This document shows, piece after piece, positions 28,909 through 33,172 of a stretch of 33,829 nt of DNA. The stretch is from a virus. The DNA is taken from IMG/VR virus record IMGVR_UViG_3300017971_000575, positions 1 through 33,829 of that record; one strand, 5' to 3'. The notes below the pieces were generated by a model that searched no databases, had not been told where the DNA came from, and was given only the letters and a program-made list of their open reading frames with translations. Made by a program: the position numbers and the translations under genes. Position 1 is the stretch's first letter. Every line of letters begins with the position of its first letter.

Positions 28909-28910
28909 CT

Positions 28911-29048
28911 GCCCCGGACAGGAGTCGAACCTGCTTCTGTACCGAATGGCCTGTTAGGCAAGCGTCCCCACCTAACCCTGGACGTATGTCACGTGCCACA
29001 GTCCCAGCGAGGGCTCGTATCGGCCGCATTCCACAATGCTACCGGGGC
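28911..29048 (-). ncRNA. tRNA-like element with about 70-nt insertion in anticodon loop
   Basis: Read on the minus strand, GCCCCGG (29048-29042) pairs with CCGGGGC (28917-28911) as a 7-bp acceptor stem. The T-arm is GCAGG-TTCGACT-CCTGT (28934-28918) with no bulge. After the 5' strand come T8-A9, a D-stem-like GCAT/ATGC with GG in the loop, one base, then GCCGA, which pairs with TCGGT (28945-28941) as an anticodon stem. Between the two halves of that stem lie about 70 bases that fold on their own instead of a 7-base loop. No CCA is encoded. It is either a tRNA interrupted by a very small insertion, or a tRNA-shaped RNA with another job. Confidence 0.5.
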
Positions 29049-29076
29049 ATCAAAAGGTCCTAGTGATAGTCCAAAA

Positions 29077-29123
29077 GGGACACGGAGGGAATCGAACCCT
29101 CTCTGGTTTAGCCATTGTGTCCC
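29077..29123 (-). ncRNA. Shrunken tRNA-like element A (47 nt)
   Basis: On the minus strand: GGGACAC, then AATGGCTAAACCAGA, then T-arm GAGGG-TTCGATT-CCCTC, one bulged C, then GTGTCCC pairing with the start, followed by TTTT. The acceptor-like stem is 7 bp and the T-stem 5 bp, all Watson-Crick, with a canonical T-loop. The linker can form a tiny TGG-CTAAA-CCA hairpin. There is no D-arm and no normal anticodon arm. Acceptor plus T-arm is the known minimal substrate shape for RNase P. It lies between a 78-aa gene and the longer tRNA-like element. Confidence 0.62.
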
Positions 29124-29137
29124 ACTTTCAGGGGATG

Positions 29138-29374
29138 CTAAATCTCCACCCACTCCAACTTCTGTTTCTCGACGGTCAGGCCGAAGTTCCTGGCTGCAAT
29201 CTTGGGGCTTCTCGTAACCATGCAGTCATGAATCTTATGCAGGTATTGCACCATGGCGTCACCTGCACAGGTAGCCATGAACTTAACCCCGTTCACCTTG
29301 TACGGTTTCTTCTCTGCCGCGACTCGTCGCCCAGAGGGCATGCGGCGTTTTCGTATACAGCCATGCGGTGTCAT
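29138..29374 (-). CDS. Unknown small basic protein, 78 aa
   Basis: ATG 29374 has GAGGAGAGTGAC upstream. The N-terminus is very basic (CIRKRRMPSGRRVAAEKKP), followed by helical and strand segments (VKFMATCAGDAMVQYLHK, IHDCMVTRSPKIAARNFGL, VEKQKLEWVEI). No family is recognised. The gene ends 14 bases before the shrunken tRNA-like element A. Confidence 0.55.
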   Translation of the reverse strand: MTPHGCIRKRRMPSGRRVAAEKKPYKVNGVKFMATCAGDAMVQYLHKIHDCMVTRSPKIAARNFGLTVEKQKLEWVEI

Positions 29375-29384
29375 GTCACTCTCC

Positions 29385-29600
29385 TCAAGCCAACTTGAAG
29401 GCCCGGATACATCCCGGCATGTCGGACTTCCTTGCCCGTTTTCTGATGTCCTTGATCCGTGACATCGCTGCTCTGAGTACTGACTTGCTCAGCGGCTTCC
29501 GACCACGTGCTGTGTGGATGGGATCATGGTTCCCACCACTCAGGTCACTGGATGTCCACGCTGGCTTCAGCACGTTCTCGATGGGGCGTCTGATCTTCAT
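29385..29600 (-). CDS. Unknown basic protein, 71 aa
   Basis: The ATG at 29600 follows GAGGAGCAACG. The sequence is basic and helical (KIRRPIENVLKPAW, KSVLRAAMSRIKDIRKRARK), with a Gly/Asn/His turn (DLSGGNHDP) between. It overlaps the end of the upstream gene by 56 bases in another frame. A nucleic-acid-binding role is suggested by charge only. Confidence 0.53.
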   Translation of the reverse strand: MKIRRPIENVLKPAWTSSDLSGGNHDPIHTARGRKPLSKSVLRAAMSRIKDIRKRARKSDMPGCIRAFKLA

Positions 29601-29823
29601 CGTTGCTCCTCAAATTCCGTATGTGACGTTGTGCAGTACAGTGGTGAAGCTCAAACAAAGAACAAATGTAGTAGTCCAAGTCTGGGTACTGACTCTGCTG
29701 TTCGTGTACCCATATCAGTGCTTCCTGATAAGACTCAAACACATCTTCATGTAGTTCAGGCTTGAACTCCTCCAAGTACCCATTGGTAAGCACCACATAA
29801 GTACCTTTGCCTGCTCGTTTCAT
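29545..29823 (-). CDS. Unknown protein, 92 aa
   Basis: Starts at ATG 29823 with AGGAGCAACG, sharing bases with the upstream stop (ATGA). The first 60 residues look folded (GTYVVLTNGYLEEFKPELHE, VFESYQEALIWVHEQQSQY, LDYYICSLFELHHC). The last 19 residues run over the next gene's start in another frame and are charged and disordered. The real protein may end sooner if there is a base error, as a TGA in another frame lies at the next ribosome site. No family is recognised. Confidence 0.55.
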   Translation of the reverse strand: MKRAGKGTYVVLTNGYLEEFKPELHEDVFESYQEALIWVHEQQSQYPDLDYYICSLFELHHCTAQRHIRNLRSNDEDQTPHRERAEASVDIQ

Positions 29824-29975
29824 CGTTGCTCCTGTGATTCAATGACCTTGTGCATTGCTCTGCATCCGTGGGGGCATGTGGCGTCATCGTCCACCATGCA
29901 CCCATACGGGCAGAACGTCGGGAACAGACCCGTGTCCTCGTCTTCTCTTGCGAACGCGGTGATGTCCTGACTCAT
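29820..29975 (-). CDS. Small Cys-rich protein, 51 aa
   Basis: A 51-codon frame just under usual cutoffs: it starts MSQDITAFAREDEDTG, then FCPYGCMVDDDATCPHGC, and ends HKVIESQEQR. CxxxC and CxxxC plus His suit one small zinc site. GGAGAAACCCCT lies before ATG 29975; both start and stop overlap the neighbours (ATGA). It is very likely translated. The function is unknown. Confidence 0.66.
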   Translation of the reverse strand: MSQDITAFAREDEDTGLFPTFCPYGCMVDDDATCPHGCRAMHKVIESQEQR

Positions 29976-30265
29976 AGGGGTTTCTCCAACGAGATGTTGG
30001 CTTCACCCAGATCACGGAACCTCATGGCGAGACTCGGGACACACGGCATCGGGCTTTGATTCGTCCCACCACCAGCGTGAATCAGCCAGATGAAGCAGCC
30101 GGTTTCACCCTTGTAGGTGTTGGGTTTGAGTTTGAGCCCGATCCCTTCGTGCCTGCCACGCTTGCCATATTGGTCGAGCACAACAGAGACTAGGTGCCCA
30201 GCAGGAATCTGGTGCAACTCCAGCCCGTTCTCTTCGGGAACGTGCATGTTCAATGTCACATTCAT
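29972..30265 (-). CDS. Unknown beta-rich protein, 97 aa
   Basis: ATG 30265 (MNVTLNMHVPEENG) follows GGAGG at 7 bases; the longer frame upstream is not used. The protein is beta-rich (LELHQIPAGHLVSVVLDQYG, KLKPNTYKGETGCFIWLIHA, MRFRDLGEANISLEKPL) with basic loops. No motif or family is recognised. The stop overlaps the next start (ATGA). Confidence 0.6.
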   Translation of the reverse strand: MNVTLNMHVPEENGLELHQIPAGHLVSVVLDQYGKRGRHEGIGLKLKPNTYKGETGCFIWLIHAGGGTNQSPMPCVPSLAMRFRDLGEANISLEKPL

Positions 30266-30300
30266 GATAGAACCTCCAATGAATACCAAGACTATATGAG

Positions 30301-30315
30301 CGGGGACTATCCCCG
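30301..30315. repeat. Small hairpin CGGGGA-CTA-TCCCCG
   Basis: A 6-bp GC-rich stem with a 3-base loop, in the 147-base gap between the genes ending at 30413 and starting at 30265. No T-run follows on the minus strand, so it is a weak terminator candidate at most. It may help shield mRNA ends. Confidence 0.5.
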
Positions 30316-30331
30316 ACACATTCAAGGAAGG

Positions 30332-30370
30332 GGGGCACCCAGTTGGCGAGACTGGCGACACTTGTGCCCC
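30332..30370 (-). ncRNA. Hairpin with tRNA-like-element layout but no T-loop
   Basis: On the minus strand GGGGCAC pairs with GTGCCCC (7 bp); between them come AAGTGTCG and a small hairpin CCAG-TCTCGCCAA-CTGG stacked directly on the closing strand. This is the same plan as the three shrunken tRNA-like elements (7-bp stem, short linker, coaxial hairpin), but the loop lacks the TTCGA signature. It may be a decayed copy or an unrelated structure. Confidence 0.4.
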
Positions 30371-30384
30371 AAGGAAGTGAGAGA

Positions 30385-30403
30385 GCCCGTCAGGACAACG
30401 GGC
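30385..30403 (-). terminator. Possible weak terminator hairpin
   Basis: GCCCGT and ACGGGC form a 6-bp stem with a 7-base loop, starting 10 bases after the stop at 30413 of the leftward gene. The sequence after it on the minus strand is TCTCTCACTTCC, pyrimidine-rich but without a clear U-run. It could slow or partly end transcription, or protect the 3' end. Confidence 0.35.
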
Positions 30404-30412
30404 GGGACTGAT

Positions 30413-30625
30413 TTACTGATCTTCGAGCAGAGTGATCCGGCCCATGAGTAGAGCCTGTTCGAGCCCGAACACCTCGTTCTCCCCGCAGCATTCGCACGGG
30501 TAGTTCTCGGCATCGGGTTCACACCCTCCCCTGTACTCACCACAAGCGAGACAAATTCCCTCGTTCTCCATGCCGAACATATTCGCTTCGATCATGGATT
30601 GCGGAACCTCGTACACTTCCGGCAT
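30413..30625 (-). CDS. Conserved small zinc protein, 70 aa
   Basis: The protein starts MPEVYEVPQSMIEANMFG and carries ICLACGEYRGGCEPDAENY then PCECCGENEVFGLEQALLMG. The pattern CLACGE - EPDAxNYxCExCGExxVxGLEE is a small zinc protein that I recognise as common in phages and some bacteria. Four or more Cys in two CxxC pairs hold zinc. AAAGGG lies at good spacing before ATG 30625. The function is not established. It is followed by hairpins and preceded by the tRNA-like element B. Confidence 0.72.
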   Translation of the reverse strand: MPEVYEVPQSMIEANMFGMENEGICLACGEYRGGCEPDAENYPCECCGENEVFGLEQALLMGRITLLEDQ

Positions 30626-30655
30626 AGCAAGACCCTTTCAGTGAAGTCCAAGAAA

Positions 30656-30717
30656 GTCCTCGTGCGGGGATCGAACCCGCCCAGCTAAGGCGTAGAAAGC
30701 TGTACCCATTCGAGGAC
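30656..30717 (-). ncRNA. Shrunken tRNA-like element B (62 nt)
   Basis: On the minus strand: GTCCTCG (30717-30711), then AATGGGTA, then a stem CAGCT/AGCTG with an 11-base loop, then T-arm GCGGG-TTCGATC-CCCGC, one bulged A, and CGAGGAC (30662-30656), followed by TTTCTTGG. Acceptor-like (7 bp) and T-stems (5 bp) are perfect. It looks like a D-armless tRNA; the loop centre reads CT-ACG-CC, so ACG could be an anticodon, though the loop is too long. No CCA is encoded. It lies between a membrane microprotein and the 70-aa zinc protein. Confidence 0.64.
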
Positions 30718-30751
30718 CGTCACGTTTCGAGGGAGTGACACCCCTTCATCC

Positions 30752-30835
30752 TCAGCACAGTGTGCAGTAGGCCAGCACCGTGAGCAGAATCACAGTGGGC
30801 CACTCTGATTCGAGAAATCGAGCGTACATACCCAT
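30752..30835 (-). CDS. 27-aa single-helix membrane microprotein
   Basis: A 27-codon frame starting MGMYARFLESEWP and ending TVILLTVLAYCTLC. The C-terminal half is one hydrophobic helix. TAGGAGATCACGCC lies before ATG 30835. It is isolated between tRNA-like elements B and C rather than overlapping neighbours, so if those are processing sites it would be cut out as a tiny mRNA. It is the third membrane microprotein of the leftward block. The function is unknown. Confidence 0.55.
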   Translation of the reverse strand: MGMYARFLESEWPTVILLTVLAYCTLC

Positions 30836-30866
30836 GGCGTGATCTCCTATTCAGTCAAGACGTGAA

Positions 30867-30908
30867 GCCCGTGGGCCGGAATCGAACCGGCCTGAACCAT
30901 TCACGGGC
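30867..30908 (-). ncRNA. Shrunken tRNA-like element C (42 nt)
   Basis: On the minus strand: GCCCGTG (30908-30902), then AATGGTTCAG, then T-arm GCCGG-TTCGATT-CCGGC, one bulged C, and CACGGGC (30873-30867), followed by TTCACG. It is the simplest of the three: a 7-bp acceptor-like stem stacked on a 5-bp T-arm with only 10 bases in place of the D- and anticodon arms. All pairs are Watson-Crick. It lies between the 70-aa gene at 30926 and the 27-aa microprotein. Confidence 0.64.
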
Positions 30909-30925: not shown

Positions 30926-31138
30926 CTACTCAGTGGCAGCGGGCGTGCTGGGGACCTGGATGTAGGCATTCAGGCCCACGATGATGGGGTGTCCCTTGTG
31001 CTGGGCCGCAGTGGCCTTATTCCCTCGGGACGAAGCGACGACGGTCGTCTTGCCCGTCTTACTCGGGGCCTCACTCAAGGGGCACGAGACCTGAAGCGTG
31101 GGCACACCATTCACCTTGGTAACTTTTGCGGTCATCAT
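30926..31138 (-). CDS. Conserved small phage protein, 70 aa
   Basis: The first gene of the leftward unit. ATG 31138 (next codon also ATG) has CAGGAG 7 bases upstream. The sequence TLQVSCPLSEAPSKTGKTTV, VASSRGNKATAAQHKGHPI and IVGLNAYI follows a pattern I remember in small phage and bacterial proteins (SxxGKxxVVASxxGN - GxPxxVGLNAYI). Beta-rich, no catalytic residues. As the promoter-proximal gene it is probably made early and in quantity. The function is unknown. Confidence 0.68.
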   Translation of the reverse strand: MMTAKVTKVNGVPTLQVSCPLSEAPSKTGKTTVVASSRGNKATAAQHKGHPIIVGLNAYIQVPSTPAATE

Positions 31139-31186: not shown

Positions 31187-31687
31187 CAACTCAGATCAGG
31201 CTCGGGAATGAACCGAACCGTCCGATAACCGCACAGTCCGCAAATAGAAGATGGGCGATCCGTCGCCCCCATTCGTTCCGTCCCTACGCACACCACGCCT
31301 TGTAGAATCCAGTGCCGAATATTCGACGGTCCTCTTGCATGTGACGTCCGGGGGCCATTCTGACCCGACAGTCCGATAGCCTTGTGGATGCAGCACCCTC
31401 ACGGGCCGCTGATTCATCCAGGTTATCGGGCCTGAACGTCGTCTCTGTGGACCGTCTGATCCGAGACCGTTGGCGTGATCTGCTTCGTCTTGGACTGTTC
31501 ATTATAGGTCCTTTCGATAGCAGATTCTGGTTTTGGTATCCATCGGATACCCTGCCAACCACCAATTTGTCCGTCCGATAAGACGCGACTCCATTCTGAG
31601 AACACGTTATTGCCCCTATGGTCGTCCGTGCTCCGTGCGTGCGTTTGGTCGTCCGTGCGTCTGCCAGTCCCTTGTGCCGACACTTTA

Positions 31688-31716
31688 AGTATACACGATG
31701 AATAAACGCGTGCCAA
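31688..31716 (-). promoter_or_regulatory. Leftward sigma-70-type promoter
   Basis: On the minus strand TTGGCA (31716-31711), a 17-base spacer and TATACT (31693-31688) match the consensus -35 and -10 boxes with ideal spacing. It points into the leftward gene block, with the first gene starting about 540 bases downstream. GTCCGATAA copies lie downstream at 31573 and 31220 and TTATCGGAC lies upstream at 31782, so it may be controlled by the factor that binds those repeats. Confidence 0.6.
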
Positions 31717-31908
31717 CAACAAAAAGCCAAATTGACGCACAATTGTGCAAAATGGCCTTTAGCGTACCGTGGGCCGCATGATTATCGGACGGCAGGCTGA
31801 AGTTTTTCTGGAGCGTCCTATAAAGTAGAACGCGTGCGTAGGGCAGGGACTGTGATAGAATGGGGATAGCATGCCCATGGGGAGCGATGTTATCGGACGT
31901 GCGTCCCT

Positions 31909-32219
31909 GGTGGCAAGGGTGGCACTTTGGGCCGGAAGGGTGGCACAAGTATGGCAGGGAATCGGCGTTCCTGATCTGAAAACGGCAATCTGCCATACTT
32001 GCCATACTTTCCACCCTTATGAAAGAAGTATATAGAAGGGTGGCACGCAATTGTTGTCCTCGTGTGCGTGACTTGTGCGGAGGACCGTGTGGCGTGTACA
32101 CACAAGCCTTATAAGGGGTTTTTGGTAGGGTGGCAAGTATGGAAAGGGTGGCAGATCGTCGCAAGTCTAGGTCCGATAAGAACTTAGCGTGTGACGTCAA
32201 GTATGGCAGAAGGGTGGCA
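31909..32219. repeat. Iteron-like repeats GGGTGGCA and AAGTATGGCA
   Basis: GGGTGGCA occurs at 31917, 31938, 32038, 32128, 32146 and 32212, with GGTGGCA at 31909. AAGTATGGCAG occurs at 31947 and 32199, AAGTATGG at 32135, and inverted copies lie at 31990-32018, where two TGCCATACTT-type units and a CCACCC unit are joined. The cluster of about 310 bases, half direct and half inverted, sits between TTATCGGAC copies. It resembles iteron arrays at plasmid and phage origins or a multi-site operator. Confidence 0.72.
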
Positions 32220-32929
32220 GTAGGCAGGCAGCGTTATCGGACGTTGGTGCACAAGCCATGCAAATGAGGCCATGTTATCGGACTGATGGAGGTCTTAGCC
32301 CCTACCCTGTCCCTGTCCCTGTCTCCATACCATGGATATCAGTCTCCGACGGGGCTGATTATAGGACTCTGTCCCCATGGAGAGAGGCAGGTCCGATAAG
32401 ATCACGCCAGTCACGCCAGCAACGCCGGTATTATCGGACCACCGGGGGGTACCACCCTCGCTTTTCGCGGGCAGGAGTCCCATACCCCCTCTTAGACCCC
32501 GCCTATATGCCCCATTTTTGGGACTTGTGCGTAGTTTTGCGTAATTTGTGCCATTTTCCTGCAAAAAAGTGCCCCCATAACCCCCGGTCTAGCCAGCATT
32601 TACGAGCCTACGCGAAAATTGTTCCCACGAGAGGGCACCTGACGTTGGCAAATAGGTACACTCTGAGGGTTAAGTGGAAGGGAGTGGTGTTTTTGCAGTC
32701 ATCGGTCGCTCACGCAGCCGCGAGCAGGGCAACGCCACCCCTCACTGCCCCAAAGCGGGCTGGTATCATCGGGCGATACGTCATGAGCCCGGCTATTACG
32801 CACAACTGTGCACACCGAGCAGACCCCGGTGCACCGGAAATGACTCGGATGTTGTGCGAAGACTATCGGCGGGCGGGCCTGGACACGATACCTACGGGTC
32901 CCTCCAAACCCAGACCTTGCCCGCCACTT

Positions 32930-33003
32930 GGTCCCATAGCTCAGTTGGACGGAGCACCGGATTGTCGATCCGAAGGTCGCGGGTTCAAGTCCCGCTGGGG
33001 CCG
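32930..33003 (+). tRNA. tRNA-Asp(GTC)
   Basis: A complete 74-base cloverleaf: acceptor GGTCCCA/TGGGGCC (one G-T pair), D-arm GCTC/GAGC, anticodon stem CCGGA/TCCGA (outer pair mismatched) with loop TTGTCGA, so anticodon GTC, and T-arm GCGGG-TTCAAGT-CCCGC. The discriminator is G. CCA is not encoded. It is the first element of the rightward unit beyond the control region. Confidence 0.9.
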
Positions 33004-33011
33004 TTTGGGGT

Positions 33012-33087: not shown

Positions 33088-33172
33088 GGAAGGTAGGGGG
33101 CAATGGTGCCCAACTGGTCTTGAAAACCAGCCCAGCCTTGACCGGCTGACAGTTCGATTCCGTTACCTTCCG
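33088..33172 (+). tRNA. tRNA-Ser(TGA)
   Basis: An 85-base class II tRNA: acceptor GGAAGGT/ACCTTCC (7 bp), a D-arm with GG in the loop, anticodon stem CTGGT/ACCAG with loop CTTGAAA (anticodon TGA), a long variable arm (CAGCC/GGCTG), and a T-arm with loop TTCGATT that has one A-C mismatch. The discriminator is G, as usual for serine tRNAs. CCA is not encoded. Confidence 0.88.

Follow-up and report, generated by a model that had tools for sequence, protein, structure and literature searches.

Half-tRNA elements without an anticodon arm at phage gene boundaries: candidate cutting sites in phage messages

We analyzed a 33.8-kb virus record (IMG/VR IMGVR_UViG_3300017971_000575; all 33,829 nucleotides are referred to here as the window) that carries three short tRNA-like elements, A, B and C, on its minus strand. 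Each resembles the upper half of a tRNA, an acceptor-like stem followed by a T-arm, with no decoding half. The initial annotation had treated them as a feature of this phage's leftward message. Judged by sequence and predicted pairing, they instead belong to a large, widespread RNA family found in many unrelated phages, whose members follow the orientation of the genes around them and, in several cultured phages, mark successive gene boundaries.

Half-tRNA elements of the window

Scanning both strands with a descriptor (acceptor of 7 bp, T-stem of 5 bp, TTCRANN loop) recovered A, B and C at exactly the positions first reported, compared with none in 300 dinucleotide-preserving shuffles. All three lie between genes (Table 1). 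They share one plan. An acceptor-like stem of 7 perfect pairs is followed by AATGG and the rest of the linker, then by a T-stem of 5 perfect pairs capped with a TTCGAT(T/C) loop; a single unpaired base leads to the closing strand. Two details of the original description needed correction. Linkers of 10, 15 and 30 nt had been counted as following AATGG, and these lengths include it; a T-rich run had been ascribed to every element and is present downstream of A (TTTT) and B (TTTCTT), with TTCACG downstream of C. Folding z-scores were -2.7 for A, -1.8 for B and -3.1 for C.

The only other descriptor matches in the window were a true tRNA-Asp and a fourth tRNA-like element that had been overlooked (z-score -2.7). 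Its acceptor, D-arm (GCAT/ATGC) and T-arm are intact, with an imperfect hairpin of about 60 nt replacing the anticodon arm, and ARAGORN with introns allowed reads it as a tRNA-Val with a 52-nt intron. In ARAGORN's normal mode none of A, B and C was called and no tmRNA was found in the window; the elements, at 42-62 nt, contain no tag frame. Against Rfam 15 at the gathering threshold, the tRNA-Asp was the sole match in the window. The elements have the T-arm of a tRNA (RF00005), 5 bp closed by G53-C61 with a TTCRANY loop, and lack its cloverleaf. As first proposed for at least two of them, a normal anticodon arm (5 bp, 7-nt loop) is missing; none fits in the 10-30 nt linkers, and the 5-bp hairpin with an 11-nt loop in B is not a normal one.

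Table 1. Half-tRNA elements of the window, their parts, and neighboring features
Feature	Positions	Strand	Length	Details
Element C	30867..30908	-	42 nt	from descriptor scan
C, acceptor	30908-30902/30873-30867	-		5' GCCCGTG; 3' CACGGGC
C, D-loop-like linker	30901-30892	-		AATGGTTCAG
C, T-stem	30891-30887/30879-30875	-		GCCGG/CCGGC
C, T-loop	30886-30880	-		TTCGATT
C, unpaired base	30874	-		C
Element B	30656..30717	-	62 nt	from descriptor scan
B, acceptor	30717-30711/30662-30656	-		GTCCTCG/CGAGGAC
B, linker	30710-30681	-	30 nt	AATGG plus hairpin CAGCT..AGCTG with 11-nt loop
B, T-stem	30680-30676/30668-30664	-		GCGGG/CCCGC
B, T-loop	30675-30669	-		TTCGATC
B, unpaired base	30663	-		A
Element A	29077..29123	-	47 nt	from descriptor scan
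A, acceptor	29123-29117/29083-29077	-		GGGACAC/GTGTCCC
A, linker	29116-29102	-		AATGGCTAAACCAGA
A, T-stem	29101-29097/29089-29085	-		GAGGG/CCCTC
A, T-loop	29096-29090	-		TTCGATT
A, unpaired base	29084	-		C
Fourth tRNA-like element	28910..29049	-	140 nt	27 nt after A
Gene	30926..31138	-	70 aa	stop 17 nt upstream of C; no Pfam match; longer form of the frame without PHROGs match
Short reading frame	30753..30834	-		MGMYARFLESEW...; in the gap from C to B, 32 nt downstream of C and 35 nt upstream of B
Gene	30413..30625	-	70 aa	cysteine-rich; no family match; starts 30 nt after B
Gene	29138..29374	-	78 aa	stop 14 nt upstream of A
tRNA-Asp(gtc)	32929..33004	+		true tRNA; opposite strand to the elements; 3' tail without C74, as in the window elements
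tRNA-Ser(tga)	33088..33172	+		true tRNA; opposite strand to the elements

A family of half-tRNAs in phages

We searched IMG/VR contigs for the AATGG...T-arm core, selecting by the loop letters AATGGTTNNNNNNGGTTCGANTCC alone and ignoring pairing. At least about 100 unique elements carry the AATGG core, and at least about 100 further unique elements carry an AACGG core. Their common plan is a 5-7 bp acceptor stem, a D-loop-like A[AC][TC]GG without a D-stem, and a T-arm, with no anticodon arm. Among the matches listed, 76 of the 103 unique viral hits have six perfect inner acceptor pairs, compared with 2.1 expected (maximum 5) when the 3' strands were dealt out anew 200 times, and 96 have a fully paired T-stem (15.8 expected). 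The 76 well-paired hits contain 57 distinct acceptor strands. Two-sided changes appear in the pair counts at every one of the seven acceptor pairs and at the three T-stem pairs that vary. In one alignment (A1), 96.2% of cells are paired and the covariation score is 1.044, against 0.211 when shuffled and at most 0.198 when slid; its sequences were picked for pairing, and the loop-selected 103 hits provide the unbiased pairing test. A general descriptor found zero elements in shuffled (1.09 Mb) and in reversed (3.1 Mb) sequence.

The suggestion that the stems change in sequence while still pairing, so that structure is conserved, is borne out by these covarying homologues, whose absence from related phages had been named beforehand as grounds for giving it up. 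Our model, R1, was built from 42 family sequences including C; it scores C, one of its own training sequences, at 51.3 bits and A, from outside the training set, at 30.5 bits. Element B and the fourth element match R1 in the T-arm only, because their linkers are long. The core also occurs in named bacterial genomes, including Bacillota, Bacteroidota and Actinomycetota, and several of these copies, where checked, lie near terminase, portal, Sak4 or Mu-type transposase genes and are thus in prophages. When seven loci with elements were compared with Rfam 15, true tRNAs were matched and nothing else. Two candidate extensions of the family were dropped. The pattern AATGG..17 nt..GGTTCGATTCC has many hits but appears, from its uniform sequence, to be a conserved protein-coding stretch, and no link to E. 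coli phages was found, most of the hits that suggested one being ordinary tRNA-Gly T-arms.

Invariant across the family are A A T/C G G and the T-arm. Of the D-stem there is at most a vestige, and linkers are usually 10-12 nt long. In tRNA terms, AATGGTTA corresponds to D-loop positions A14 R15. G18 G19. A21, and in the established tRNA structure the D-loop GG docks on the T-loop. With this GG and the T-arm kept, the elements would therefore retain the elbow and acceptor of a tRNA and lack its decoding half. Their stack of 5-7 bp, 0-1 unpaired bases and 5-6 bp resembles the roughly 12-bp acceptor/T-stem stack, ending in a T-loop, of pAT1-type model substrates of RNase P.

The 3' tails of the elements are like those of tRNA genes (RF00005) in the same phages. 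The commonest tail after the acceptor is A-C-N-A, with C74 present in 62 of 80 elements and an encoded CCA in 3 of 92. True tRNA genes of the same contigs mostly end in N-C-A-A (CCA in 14 of 184), and elements and true tRNAs agree on whether C74 is present in 28 of 31 contigs, one of them being the window, which has it in neither; many of these contigs are related, making this an association rather than 31 independent events. We had considered a "CCA with C75 changed" as a special tail of the elements, but true tRNAs of the same contigs share it. Eight phage contigs have clusters of 17-25 tRNA genes in which C74 is encoded and CCA is mostly absent (N73-C-A-A), and in every one a half-tRNA lies within the cluster or close to it.

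Several known systems resemble the elements in part. The pAT1-type substrates, which consist of the acceptor and T-arm of E. coli tRNAPhe and are sufficient for RNase P cleavage in vitro, likewise stack an acceptor on a T-arm with no other tRNA part (PMC11143913). Those are laboratory constructs, whereas the phage elements are natural, keep the D-loop-like GG linker and lie inside operons. In mitochondrial tRNA punctuation, tRNA shapes between genes define the cuts in polycistronic RNA; there, however, the tRNAs are full or trimmed and still decode, while the phage elements lack the decoding half and are carried by DNA phages. Armless metazoan mitochondrial tRNAs are also shortened, but in them the anticodon survives and the D- and/or T-arm is gone, so that the phage elements keep the opposite half. 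Viral substrates listed for RNase P include plant-virus tRNA-like structures, phi80 M3 RNA, the phage antisense C4 RNA and T4 gene 32 mRNA (PMC11143913), all apparently single elements of other design. We compared phi80 M3 RNA with the family and rejected it as a member, as it is an oop-type hairpin, and the phi80 genome yielded no half-tRNA element. Canonical phage tRNAs and tmRNA share the T-arm consensus, acceptor and 3' tail but have the anticodon arm, D-stem or tag frame that the phage elements lack, and neither normal-mode ARAGORN nor Rfam calls the phage elements. The elements are neither tRNA nor tmRNA, are unlike phi80 M3 RNA, and combine a pAT1-type shape with an arrangement like mitochondrial punctuation. 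We found no description of such phage elements in the literature searched; preprints and most subscription journals fell outside its scope, and an earlier description is possible. The chance is substantial that phage-wide punctuation of this kind merits a separate category.

Placement at gene boundaries

Flanking genes lie on the same strand as the element in 156 cases and on the opposite strand in 15. Unannotated contigs were read with a simple, error-prone gene caller, and the main claim about placement is based on annotated phages. By descriptor counts, the cultured mycobacteriophages Papyrus, Indlulamithi, Fowlmouth, Cuke, MrMiyagi, Send513 and Weiss13 have 14, 13, 10, 12, 10, 12 and 13 elements, respectively, including in some phages one true tRNA-Gln or doubtful form. 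No elements were found on the opposite strand in any of the seven, and shuffled sequence gave 0-0.1 elements per phage in the three tested. The Papyrus region from 38.2 to 46.0 kb has 12 intergenic gaps that hold one element apiece, and sense-oriented elements also stand at successive gene boundaries in Indlulamithi, Fowlmouth and Cuke.

The order in mycobacteriophages is stop codon, element, hairpin, Shine-Dalgarno-like stretch, next start. Elements mostly begin 8-9 nt past the stop and end 35-50 nt ahead of the next start, and nearly all of those in four phages have a hairpin directly downstream (mean -8.5 to -11.4 kcal/mol, compared with -3.2 to -6.1 kcal/mol when shuffled). There is one copy per gene gap, and acceptor sequences differ at nearly every boundary; at the same locus in sister phages (Papyrus/Weiss13 and Fowlmouth/MrMiyagi) the changes are compensatory. 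Similar spacing is seen in metagenomic contigs. Among the AACGG matches listed, the distance from stop to element peaks at 8-10 nt (30 of 92), and the L182/L128/L149 phage carries about eight distinct elements, of which several lie 7-9 nt past a stop codon. Ribosome footprints place the leading edge of a terminating ribosome at about 8-10 nt past the stop.

Some elements overlap annotated gene starts, at L289 14609-14648 in Papyrus, L290 15964-16005 in Indlulamithi, and L291 11846-11887 and 15440-15486 in Fowlmouth, which suggests that several annotated starts in these phages are wrong. Related, more tRNA-like forms occur in an unannotated right-end stretch of the Lactococcus 936-type phages 712, jm3 and PhiG. 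In phage 712 (L258 1829-2536) a tRNA-Trp and a pseudo-tRNA are arrayed with two further forms, a tRNA-like element that has an anticodon-like arm (loop ATAGCAA) but no D-arm, and a tRNA that lacks the anticodon; the array looks like stages between tRNA and half-tRNA. A different arrangement is seen in L126 (930-1780, minus strand), where six near-identical half-tRNAs with GCGAGC stems recur at intervals of about 150-200 nt in a region with few genes, in contrast to the pattern of one per gap.

Searches for relatives of the window phage returned none with the DUF7178 protein, DNA polymerase or primase as queries and 13 with the metallophosphoesterase. On the minus strand of one relative (L284), near position 1500, two TTCGATT T-arms follow one another inside a perfect stem of 12 bp (GATGCTGGCGGG/CCCGCCAGCATC), forming a nested, double tRNA-like element. 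The window itself also contains nine copies of GTCCGATAA (four plus, five minus) at 31220-32440, a largely gene-poor region between the leftward genes and the tRNAs; these repeats are possibly operator, promoter or origin repeats.

Cutting of phage messages and its alternatives

The structure of the elements, their covariation, orientation and placement, and the 3' tails they have in common with true tRNAs are all directly supported. Taken together, the known minimal substrate, the sense orientation, the boundary placement and the tRNA-like tails make cutting the best explanation: the half-tRNAs are probably sites where phage operons are cleaved by host RNase P and 3' tRNA-processing enzymes, a form of tRNA punctuation with minimal substrates. 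The acceptor stem, T-stem and T-loop are an established sufficient substrate of bacterial RNase P (PMC11143913), in agreement with the initial annotation, and the enzyme's substrates can dispense with the D-loop but need the T-loop or a similar loop (PMC4919913). The elements would serve as minimal tRNA precursors within phage messages, with the acceptor stacked on the T-arm and the remnant D-loop GG able to dock on the T-loop. Host RNase P would recognize the acceptor/T-loop shape and cleave at the 5' edge, just past the upstream stop codon, and the 3' tRNA-processing enzymes would probably cut or trim the other edge. A long transcript could in this way be split into messages of one or a few genes, each with defined ends. 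The downstream message would, in mycobacteriophages, begin with a protective hairpin, 5' hairpins being known stabilizers of bacterial mRNA 5' ends. From these features we infer cleavage by RNase P, a cut on the 3' side and an effect on how stable the messages are.

Several observations weigh against cutting. About two thirds of the elements from the AATGG scan, among the matches listed, are not right after a stop codon, and some are in tRNA clusters or gene-poor arrays, which would suit a free small RNA equally well. In the window the spacing from stop to element is looser (14 nt for A, 17 for C and 35 for B), and no clear hairpin follows the elements. Among records of the window phage's relatives, only 3 of 10 have tRNA-like elements, at other, non-syntenic places and with other linkers; the elements therefore appear to turn over quickly.

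Alternatively, the elements might remain uncut in an intact message as a barrier to 3'-end exonucleases, a cistron insulator, or a site of ribosome recruitment or release. We regard this as unlikely; it accords with a constant spacing of 8-10 nt at the edge of the terminating ribosome and with the hairpin that comes next in mycobacteriophages, but a plain hairpin would suffice, and the conserved T-loop, D-loop GG and tRNA-like 3' tail would go unexplained. There is a small chance that free mini-tRNAs act in trans, occupying RNase P or the CCA-adding enzyme, or serving as decoys for host or defense enzymes that act on tRNA ends or elbows, such as the tail-cutting Cas12a3 (PMC12851939). The tRNA-like tail, the tandem near-identical copies of L126 and the copies inside tRNA clusters are in keeping with such a role. 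A decoy, however, would need neither one copy per gene gap nor differing acceptors, and encoded CCA tails are almost absent. The initial annotation had left the choice between processing signal and decoy open. Processing fits the predicted anatomy (the top half of a tRNA, 8-10 nt past the stop, in sense, with matching tails), and the decoy is less likely because it explains placement at gene boundaries less well.

It is highly improbable that the elements are decaying, functionless tRNA genes. The phage 712 series from true tRNA-Trp through D-armless to anticodon-less forms could be read as decay, but covariation contradicts such relics, as do the stereotyped 10-12 nt linker and the spread over many unrelated phages. 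Just as little credence goes to a DNA-level element such as an integration site or a replication or transposition signal. Inverted repeats and the copies in prophages would suit it; the strand bias, with 156 genes to 15 in the element's orientation and an empty opposite strand in mycobacteriophages, contradicts it, and G-U pairs and RNA-style covariation point the same way.

Returning to message cutting, the broader proposal is that anticodon-less half-tRNAs are an undescribed RNA family and a general expression device of DNA phages, by which RNase P cuts operons into separately stable messages; we think this somewhat likelier to be right than wrong. It is readily testable, as cultured M. smegmatis phages hold 10-14 copies each and lactococcal 936-type phages hold related ones. 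If true, the minimal RNase P substrate familiar from work in vitro would have a natural counterpart in these elements, which would also allow gene starts to be corrected and provide a simple sequence rule for reading phage operons. Phage gene expression would be set by RNA cutting in addition to promoters and terminators, in a widespread and apparently unannotated layer of control that leaves the cutting of messages to an essential ribozyme of the host.

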